Assembly: GCA_016183245.1 (NCBI GenBank)
Contig: JACPEY010000035.1
Location: forward strand, 1 to 33,788
DNA from: Candidatus Daviesbacteria bacterium
Lineage (GTDB): Bacteria; Patescibacteriota; Microgenomatia; Daviesbacterales; UBA10151
Direction of reading: 5' to 3'
DNA length: 33,788 nucleotides
Shown here: positions 6,928 through 20,867 of the stretch, piece by piece
How positions within the stretch are numbered: position 1 is the first letter of the stretch
How the letters are laid out: the number at the start of each line of letters is the position of its first letter
Made by a program: the position numbers and the translations under genes
Notes under the pieces: model-generated
What the model was told of the DNA's origin: nothing
Database searches by the model: none
The model's input: only the letters and a program-made list of their open reading frames with translations

Positions 6928-7191
6928 TCATCTTGCAAGACCCTCAAAAATCATTTGCTTGATTAATGACTGATAAGGAACATCCATTTTATGCGCTCGT
7001 ATTTTGAGACGGTCAATCACATCCAACGGCAAACGCAAGGTAATTGGTTTAGTAGTGAGCTTGAGATTAGGGAAACGCCAGTTTTCCAAAGATTTATACT
7101 CCACATATTCTGTCGAATCGTGAGTTTGCCAAAACTCCCGTTCTTCTTTCTCGCTTTTAAACTTGGGGATTCTTTTTAACTCTTTTTTCAT
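6928..7191 (-). CDS. BrnA/CopG-type antitoxin
   Basis: KKELKRIPKFKSEKEEREFWQTHDSTEY... and C-terminal RHH-like PITLRLPLDVIDRLKIRAHKMDVPYQSLIKQMI; overlaps the BrnT ORF. Confidence 0.85.
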   Translation of the reverse strand: MKKELKRIPKFKSEKEEREFWQTHDSTEYVEYKSLENWRFPNLKLTTKPITLRLPLDVIDRLKIRAHKMDVPYQSLIKQMIFEGLAR

Positions 7192-7471
7192 ACAACCTCC
7201 TTTCTTTCTGATTGGCTATCCTTGCTGAAATTACTCTGATCTTATGTTTCCTCAAAGTAAAAACAACAAACAAAATCCTTGCAACTTCATTTTTGCCAAT
7301 CGCAATATACCTGGTTTCTTTCTCCTGATGTTTAATATCTTTCTCTATTTGTACACCCTCATCGGTAAAAACTTGCTCAGTTTCATTCGGTGTAATACCG
7401 TGTTTTTGATAACTTTTGTCAATATTCCCTTTATCCCATTCAAAACTGATAATTTTACTCAGGTCTATCAC
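7157..7471 (-). CDS. BrnT-family RNase toxin (GTG start proposed at 7471)
   Basis: ISFEWDKGNIDKSYQKHGITPNETEQVF...RVISARIANQKERRLYEKR is BrnT-like. Called ATG at 7507 lies in the -35 box, so GTG (VIDLSK) at 7471 is preferred. Confidence 0.85.
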   Translation of the reverse strand: MIDLSKIISFEWDKGNIDKSYQKHGITPNETEQVFTDEGVQIEKDIKHQEKETRYIAIGKNEVARILFVVFTLRKHKIRVISARIANQKERRLYEKRVKKNPQV

Positions 7472-7507
7472 TGTACATATATTACATGTACAAACTTTCC
7501 TTGTCAA
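7472..7507 (-). promoter_or_regulatory. brnTA promoter with overlapping palindromic operator TGTACAT-N7-ATGTACA
   Basis: Minus strand TTGACA (7502-7507) - 17 nt - TAATAT (7479-7484); inverted repeat 7472-7478 / 7486-7492 covers the -10. Confidence 0.75.
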
Positions 7508-7546
7508 GATGGACTAATATTGAAAGTCCAGCTATAATAGAACAAC

Positions 7547-7623
7547 TTGGAGAGGTCGCGCCACATTCGCTAAAGCGAAGTAGGCGTCCCTGCTTCCGCA
7601 AAGCGGAATGCGGGACATAGTGG
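7547..7623 (+). repeat. tRNA-Ser 5' fragment (GGAGAGGTCGC|ATAGTGG) split by a 57-nt palindromic insert
   Basis: TTGGAGAGGTCGC at 7547-7559 and ATAGTGG at 7617-7623 match contiguous 7873-7892 of the intact tRNA-Ser; the insert holds hairpins TTCGC-TAAA-GCGAA and CTTCCGC-AAA-GCGGAA. Confidence 0.75.
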
Positions 7624-7628
7624 TCTTT

Positions 7629-7871
7629 ATGTTTTATGTATACATATTATTAAGTACAAAAGATCACAAATATTATTATGGTTCAACAAATAATATTGAA
7701 AGGCGTTTTTTTGAGCATAATTGTGGTAAGGTGGATTCGACTAAAAACCGTAGACCATTAAAACTTCATTATGTTGAAACTTTTAATGAAAGAAAGGATG
7801 CTTTAAAAAGAGAATTTTTCTTTAAAAAAAGATCCGGCTATAAGTGGCTTAAAATGAAAGAGATTATATAA
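7629..7871 (+). CDS. GIY-YIG endonuclease superfamily protein
   Basis: MFYVYILLSTKDHKYYYGSTNNIERRFFEHN...DALKREFFFKKRSGYKWLK; start at 7629 fits the family better than 7608. Confidence 0.92.
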   Translation: MFYVYILLSTKDHKYYYGSTNNIERRFFEHNCGKVDSTKNRRPLKLHYVETFNERKDALKREFFFKKRSGYKWLKMKEII

Positions 7872-7874
7872 TTT

Positions 7875-7959
7875 GGAGAGGTCGCATAGTGGCCTAGTGC
7901 GCGCGCTTGGAAAGCGCGTATACCGCAAGGTATCGAGGGTTCAAATCCCTCCCTCTCCG
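7875..7959 (+). tRNA. tRNA-Ser(GGA)
   Basis: GGAGAGG...CGCGC TTGGAAA GCGCG...long variable arm...GAGGG TTCAAAT CCCTC CCTCTCC G. Confidence 0.95.
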
Positions 7960-8083
7960 CAGATTTCGAAGAAATCAAGGAGAGGAGAAAACAAACTGCT
8001 TTGTTTCGTGAGGATTTGAAGGGTTTTTCTTTATGCTTTGCATAGAAAAACCCAGGCCCGAAGGGAAATCCCTCCCTCTCCGC
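7943..8083 (+). repeat. 18-bp direct repeat of tRNA-Ser 3' end bracketing a hairpin-rich spacer
   Basis: AAATCCCTCCCTCTCCGC at 7943-7960 and exactly again at 8066-8083. Confidence 0.85.
8021..8053. repeat. Long hairpin GGGTTTTTCTTTATGC-TTT-GCATAGAAAAACCC
   Basis: Near-perfect inverted repeat; may act as a bidirectional terminator. Confidence 0.55.
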
Positions 8084-8085
8084 CT

Positions 8086-8155
8086 TCGCCTCGCCGAAGT
8101 CCCGCTTAAGCGGGACGAAGGCGGGCTTCGCTGAAATTCGGCGAGGCTCCGGCGA
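8086..8155. repeat. Palindromic REP-like element including perfect GTCCCGCTTAAGCGGGAC
   Basis: 18-bp perfect palindrome at 8099-8116 flanked by TTCGCC/GGCGAA-type and CTCGCCGAA/TTCGGCGAG arms. Confidence 0.65.
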
Positions 8156-8184
8156 GATAAATCCGCTAGGTGTATAATCATTAA

Positions 8185-20409: not shown

Positions 20410-20867
20410 TTCAAACAAGAATTTACAATTTACAGTTTTCAATTTTCAATAAATTTACAATGAATCAATTTTCAAACTATTACAACCTGGAAGAAAGAAC
20501 CGCTAGGTTTGGAGAATCAGTTATCGGGTTGTGCAAAAAATTAAAACAGGATACTATCTCTTCACCGATTATTAACCAGCTGGTCCGCTCGTCTACAAGC
20601 ATTGGGGCAAATTACATGGAGGCAAATGGAGCAAGTTCTAAGAAAGATTTTCAGAACAAAATTTTTATTTGCAAAAAGGAATCACAAGAAACTAAGCATT
20701 GGCTTAGAATGTTAACAAAATGTTTTCCAGATATAATTACAGACACTAGAATTTTATGGAAAGAGGTGCAAGAATTAACTTTAATATTCCAAAAAATAGG
20801 TTCTTCATTAAAAATTAAAAAATGAAAATTGAATGAAAATTAGAAATTAAAAATTGGAAATTAAAAC
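20410..20867. mobile_element. Putative AT-rich element carrying a four-helix-bundle ORF
   Basis: Left TTTACAATTTACAGTTTTCAATTTTCAATAAATTTACAATG and right AAATTGAATGAAAATTAGAAATTAAAAATTGGAAATTAAAA resemble ends of 14128-14275 and 31929-32052. Confidence 0.5.
20460..20825 (+). CDS. Four-helix bundle protein (S23/IVP, bAvd-like)
   Basis: LEERTARFGESVIGLCKKL...PIINQLVRSSTSIGANYMEANGASSKKDFQNKIFICKKESQETKHWLRML. Confidence 0.92.
   Translation: MNQFSNYYNLEERTARFGESVIGLCKKLKQDTISSPIINQLVRSSTSIGANYMEANGASSKKDFQNKIFICKKESQETKHWLRMLTKCFPDIITDTRILWKEVQELTLIFQKIGSSLKIKK

Follow-up and report, generated by a model that had tools for sequence, protein, structure and literature searches.

The window, by which we mean the whole stretch of DNA analysed here (33,788 nucleotides of a Candidatus Daviesbacteria contig), contains a solo GIY-YIG nuclease gene that is preceded by a broken piece of a tRNA-Ser gene and followed by an intact one. 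The features of the locus are as follows:

7533–7538, + strand: TATAAT −10 box, at the native tRNA-Ser promoter position ahead of the 5′ shard (read from the sequence)
7547–7559, + strand: first part of the tRNA-Ser 5′ shard, TTGGAGAGGTCGC; GGAGAGGTCGC begins at 7549
7560–7616, + strand: 57-nt palindromic insert within the 5′ shard, forming two hairpins (fold −30.5 kcal/mol)
7617–7625, + strand: second part of the tRNA-Ser 5′ shard, ATAGTGGTC (read from the sequence)
7629–7871, + strand: GIY-YIG nuclease ORF (PF01541), with a further in-frame ATG upstream at 7608 (ORF 7608–7871)
7875–7960, + strand: intact tRNA-Ser(GGA), the proposed carried or rescue tRNA (ARAGORN and Rfam)
7961–8065, + strand: 105-nt spacer containing hairpins plus a T-arm-like stretch in antisense, like spacers at tRNAs without a GIY-YIG ORF
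8066–8083, + strand: 3′ shard, 18 nt repeating the tRNA 3′ end exactly (read from the sequence)
8084–8165, + strand: palindromic elements past the 3′ shard (fold −47.0)

Every part of the arrangement reported in the first-pass annotation (promoter, split tRNA-Ser piece, insert, GIY-YIG ORF, intact tRNA and 3′ copy) is thus present, and in the reported order. The second part of the 5′ shard, ATAGTGGTC at 7617–7625, corresponds to the bases that follow in tRNA-Ser, ATAGTGGCC, with one change. An exact 18-nt repeat inside 1.2 kb is not a chance occurrence. The intact tRNA-Ser(GGA) has no second copy that we could find in the window's genome, and is identical at 85 of 86 positions to the tRNA-Ser of a genus relative (G008). 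Palindromes like those at 8084–8165 are frequent behind the tRNA-Ser genes of relatives (L052, L053, L128 and L258). Between dnaG and the GIY-YIG element the window carries a BrnA/BrnT toxin–antitoxin pair (6928–7507), whereas in relatives with dnaG upstream, dnaG directly adjoins tRNA-Ser. Further along, at 20460–20825, a gene for a 23S rRNA-intervening sequence protein (PF05635) lies outside rRNA, among type IV secretion system (T4SS) pilin genes.

The ORF product, 80–87 aa in length, matches the GIY-YIG domain family PF01541 in Pfam with an E-value of 2.8e-15. The catalytic residues Y12, Y23, G25, R33, H37, E69 and K73, conserved in at least 99% of cases across 166 homologues, are all present in the window protein, and the ATG at 7629, which fits the family better than that at 7608, is the likelier start codon. 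The nearest solved structures are of UPF0213 proteins (1ywl and 1zg2). No PHROG family matches the nuclease; in a search for a phage vector, viral contigs gave no matches, and those to phage were weak and in other settings.

We analysed the neighbourhood of homologous ORFs across 34 related genomes. A tRNA gene lies within 250 bp of 75 of the 132 ORFs, compared with an expectation of approximately 3%, and 72 of these 75 share the strand of the tRNA. A second set, consisting of new genomes and named records, gave a similar picture, with a tRNA nearby for 20 of 42 ORFs and on the same strand in 20/20. The window's genome itself has seven such ORFs, six of them with a tRNA within about 210 bp; the seventh (L005) was seen by eye to lie beside an apparent intron-bearing tRNA-fMet at 1741–1890. 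Where the tRNA follows the ORF, the two are close: in 49 of 61 cases the ORF stop codon falls within 31 nt of the downstream tRNA (hereafter the carried tRNA) or inside it. Around 41 ORFs have the tRNA upstream, mostly without a shard, and the remaining 57 of the 132 homologues have no tRNA within 250 bp. Several ORFs without a nearby tRNA adjoin tmRNA or group I introns, lie in 23S rRNA or follow 16S rRNA.

A GIY-YIG ORF is found directly downstream of tmRNA genes in L080, L058, L107, L110 and L097, while in L098 (2973–3176) and L142 (3039–3245) one such ORF lies within the 23S rRNA gene and another shortly past 16S rRNA. Group I introns, in this genus apparently in tRNA-fMet, are seen near GIY-YIG ORFs in L085 (3250–3447) and L089 (2577–2775). 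In L244, the ORF sits between an exact 80-nt copy of the start of a protein gene and the intact gene (1883–1962 and 2250–2329), which is the layout of the tRNA loci on another kind of target, a protein gene. Four further ORFs without a nearby tRNA (L239, L243, L249 and L241; three in Bacteroidota) are apparently within protein genes, where inverted sequences that match were noticed by eye at the ends.

The first-pass annotation had called for a check on whether tRNA fragments are enriched beside homologous GIY-YIG ORFs, and this enrichment was observed. Defining a 5′ shard as an upstream piece of the same tRNA that begins at its nucleotide 1, we found one in 16 of 42 loci where the ORF precedes the tRNA, against 0 of 95 tRNAs without an ORF nearby (Fisher 6e-10) and 0 of 45 tRNAs with the ORF downstream. 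The result was replicated in the second set (12/19), and a swapped-tRNA control at score 13 yielded 6/170 hits compared with 16/34 for the true pairs.

The 3′ side behaves differently. Copies anchored at the tRNA 3′ end were found in 5/42 loci with the ORF upstream, 2/45 with it downstream and 5/95 with no ORF near, and since similar copies occur at tRNAs without an ORF, the ORF cannot be held responsible for the one in the window. The right-hand 18-nt copy, which had been read as a shard left by the ORF, was accordingly dropped as an ORF-linked signal. A scan for 3′ shards using the T-arm only was weak (4/34 ORF-then-tRNA loci and 1/38 in the other class, with a background of 0.04 per 300 nt), and both shards are clear in a few loci only. 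A mirror arrangement of tRNA, ORF and 3′ shard was sought for ORFs with the tRNA upstream and was not established. Copies of 13–18 nt of the 3′ end, lying about 92–115 nt past the tRNA, were noted in the window (7961–8083), L026, L091, L118 and L088, and also at tRNAs without a GIY-YIG ORF; the spacers of the window and L118 each contain an antisense T-arm-like stretch.

The 3′ ends of tRNA genes are classic attachment sites, and the exact 18-nt 3′ copy in the window would suit an integrase-driven island, or its remnant, that carries the ORF as cargo and has left the shards as remnants of att sites. Such tRNA fragments are common in prokaryotes (PMC9897764). No integrase domain was found among the window ORFs searched with Pfam (most ORFs of at least 110 aa), the insert holds just the ORF and a tRNA, and the signal specific to the ORF is the 5′ shard, while 3′ copies also occur without it. 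For the 5′ unit we therefore disfavour this reading, which we regard as very improbable.

A different possibility is that the tRNA was duplicated in tandem and that one copy then decayed through palindrome insertions, leaving the GIY-YIG ORF as a bystander between the two. Palindromes are indeed common around the tRNAs of these genomes, L076 retains a nearly whole pseudo-tRNA, and at many loci no difference separates the 5′ shard from the 5′ end of the carried tRNA (e.g. L067, L105 and L238), so that simple duplication could account for these cases, or else the 5′ shard may travel with the element. The absence of a 5′ shard from all 95 tRNAs without a GIY-YIG ORF argues against a bystander role, as do the relatives and the nuclease phylogeny described below.

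Comparison with relatives lacking the ORF, as the first-pass annotation had proposed, revealed what the locus looks like when empty. In seven genus relatives (G001, G003, G004, G008, G009, G010 and G011), dnaG and tRNA-Ser(GGA) are uninterrupted, with neither ORF nor shard. A TATAAT-like box precedes tRNA-Ser in most of them, at the same distance as separates the window's box from its shard. More widely, a −10 box (at least 5/6 matches to TATAAT) precedes 16 of 29 shards and 45 of 69 ordinary tRNAs, whereas the carried tRNAs, with 13/61, look like random positions (202/1390). The promoter thus stands before the shard and not before the carried tRNA, which places the shard at the start of the native tRNA gene. 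Taken with the ORF stop codon close to or inside the tRNA, the same pattern makes the intact tRNA appear dependent on read-through.

The origin of the intact copy could be addressed at loci where both halves of the interrupted tRNA are recognizable. A scan for split tRNAs, requiring a perfect acceptor complement, T8 R9 and a T-arm, found six, with none in the control, and five of the six enclose an entire tRNA whose isotype matches that of the split one. At the tRNA-Cys locus L056, the joined halves match the uninterrupted tRNA-Cys of relatives at 92–96%. Nine family members have a single uninterrupted tRNA-Cys, mostly in a shared tRNA-Ile–tRNA-Cys context, and the inner tRNA-Cys type of L056 is absent from all nine. 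At the tRNA-Val locus L112 (G004), both shards match the tRNA-Val found at the same locus in G009 and in the window's own genome (G000), and the inner copy is of the G008 type. From these sequence matches, the two shards at each of the Cys and Val loci together make up the native tRNA, while the intact tRNA between them, though of the same isoacceptor, is foreign.

Restoration of the tRNA at these loci thus comes from a carried replacement and not from duplication, the route the first-pass annotation had suggested; at the loci where the matter can be decided, that part of its proposal is contradicted. The tRNA-Ser shards in the window are too short and too conserved for the same comparison, so a foreign origin is assigned to its intact tRNA-Ser by analogy. 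A foreign intact copy between native shards also runs counter to tandem duplication with a bystander ORF, and with the linkage of nuclease lineage to tRNA isotype set out below we consider that explanation unlikely.

Nested tRNAs without an ORF were seen in the same genomes. In the window's genome, a tRNA-Arg is nested in another tRNA-Arg with no ORF (L018, G000:C18 near 63205), the outer one resembling that of G004. Together with L096 (623–796) and L116 (2770–3010), this gives three cases of a complete tRNA in the anticodon loop of a tRNA of the same isotype with no ORF inside; inverted repeats were read at the split in L018 and L116.

Some GIY-YIG ORFs of the genus (at L085 and L089) have group I introns nearby, and the window protein weakly matches an endonuclease model for such introns (E 7e-4, which misses the cut-off). 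Both could indicate the remnant of a group I intron, comprising a 5′ exon, an intron with its homing ORF and a restored tRNA. Here a complete tRNA fills the insert in place of ribozyme sequence, and Rfam intron models, at gathering threshold, matched neither the window nor the insertion points of the nested loci. This origin seems extremely improbable.

Evidence for movement comes from a second record named Candidatus Daviesbacteria (L247), in which the shard and hairpin up to the ATG are identical to those of the window at 80 of 80 positions, the ORF matches at 52 of 61 (the record stops inside it) and the upstream flank at only 14 of 60. The match beside an unrelated flank means that the unit recurs behind another upstream sequence, and that the hairpin belongs to the unit. 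That the hairpin is more conserved than the ORF would also fit a cassette of ORF and tRNA that transposes via its flanking palindromes, with the GIY-YIG enzyme acting on hairpin or cruciform DNA and not in homing repair. Identical or nearly identical hairpins on both sides of the cassette in L041, L048, L056, L112, L238, L245 and L271 point the same way. The hairpins nevertheless vary between loci and define no common end sequence, and the cargo matches the isoacceptor of its target, as expected of homology-driven homing. Palindrome-driven transposition is, in our assessment, quite unlikely.

A tree of the 166 proteins, obtained by a fast tree search over one short domain, requires 51 changes of tRNA isotype compared with 69.2 ± 1.9 for shuffled labels, and 51 changes of host family compared with 50.8 ± 1.0, although the host-family comparison is limited because many families have one row. 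When the tree was thinned to one row per family and isotype, isotype required 44 changes (50.9 ± 1.6 shuffled), and own family versus others 23 (25.5 ± 2.1). The nuclease phylogeny tracks the tRNA isotype and not the host family.

We think it probable, with good though incomplete confidence, that these loci represent an intronless homing element, made up of a free-standing GIY-YIG gene and its own rescue tRNA, within a resident tRNA gene for the same isoacceptor. In the window the target would be tRNA-Ser(GGA), a case read by comparison with Cys and Val. The core of the first-pass proposal, a minimal tRNA-targeting mobile unit around the solo GIY-YIG ORF, has strong support from the neighbourhood, the 5′ shards, the empty sites, the phylogeny and L247; duplication, at the loci where it can be decided, and the 3′ copy fall away. 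The resident gene would be left as a 5′ shard that keeps its promoter, plus a 3′ shard in complete cases, with element-borne hairpins on both. The carried tRNA, which often begins before the ORF has ended, would be co-transcribed with the nuclease from the native promoter and take the place of the broken tRNA.

Invasion would begin with cleavage of an uninvaded tRNA gene by the nuclease. Repair off the element-bearing copy would then install the ORF and the replacement tRNA, a step suggested by the anatomy, the empty sites and the foreign cargo. Survival of the cell would depend on a cargo tRNA that works and that differs enough from the native gene to resist cutting. ORF and shards may later decay, giving a nested or exchanged tRNA, a state that could correspond to the ORF-less L018 and L096. 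As a guess, the hairpins might prevent folding of the shards, or their competition with the carried tRNA.

Known systems offer partial parallels. In T-even phages, the free-standing GIY-YIG enzyme SegB is found in association with tRNA genes and is reported to cut tRNA-containing DNA (PMC2988022, PMC13096335). It resembles the present unit as a solo gene, without an intron, beside or between tRNA genes. Here, by contrast, the hosts are bacterial chromosomes, the insertion is within the tRNA gene, a whole replacement tRNA is carried and the native gene lies in shards; the solved relatives are UPF0213 proteins and there is no PHROG family match. In fungal mitochondria, mobile ORFs make gene hybrids, as in Allomyces atp6 and in Glomus atp6, atp9, cox2 and nad3 (PMC3630166). 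There too an endonuclease ORF brings a foreign replacement for the displaced part of its target, and the displaced native part remains and matches close relatives (as at Cys and Val, and by analogy in the window). The fungal ORFs replace the C-terminal end of mitochondrial protein genes, whereas here a whole bacterial tRNA gene is replaced and the 5′ shard keeps the promoter. The unit joins the ideas of SegB and the fungal mobile ORFs on a bacterial tRNA gene.

Closer in host range, rRNA genes of the candidate phyla radiation (CPR), whose members are very small bacteria, contain insertions, some with GIY-YIG ORFs, that match no intron model; the study describing them judged the GIY-YIG ORFs to be outside spread by homing and made no mention of tRNA (PMC11270868). 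Host group and ORFs outside intron models are shared with our loci, but the target-tracking phylogeny here argues for homing. Our literature search, in which coverage of subscription papers was thin, found no description of such an element. In its logic it resembles the synthetic home-and-rescue and cleave-and-rescue drives engineered in insects (PMC7968924, PMC7951863), where a nuclease against an essential gene is paired with a cut-resistant functional copy, except that here a putative drive would operate naturally and in bacteria.

Extended beyond single loci, the broader proposal, for which we see an even chance, is of a natural cleave-and-rescue selfish element. tRNA-specialized nucleases would invade essential single-copy genes across the CPR, cutting the resident gene and supplying a cut-resistant tRNA, and successive waves would swap tRNA genes among lineages, with nested or shattered tRNA genes as their scars. 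If this is correct, these elements would be the natural bacterial counterpart of engineered home-and-rescue drives, and a selfish nuclease could inhabit an essential non-coding gene without splicing. It would also account for the abundance of solo GIY-YIG genes in these reduced genomes, explain tRNA fragments overlooked by tRNA finders, provide a testable set of target-matched nucleases and put a name to an agent by which tRNA genes are replaced horizontally.
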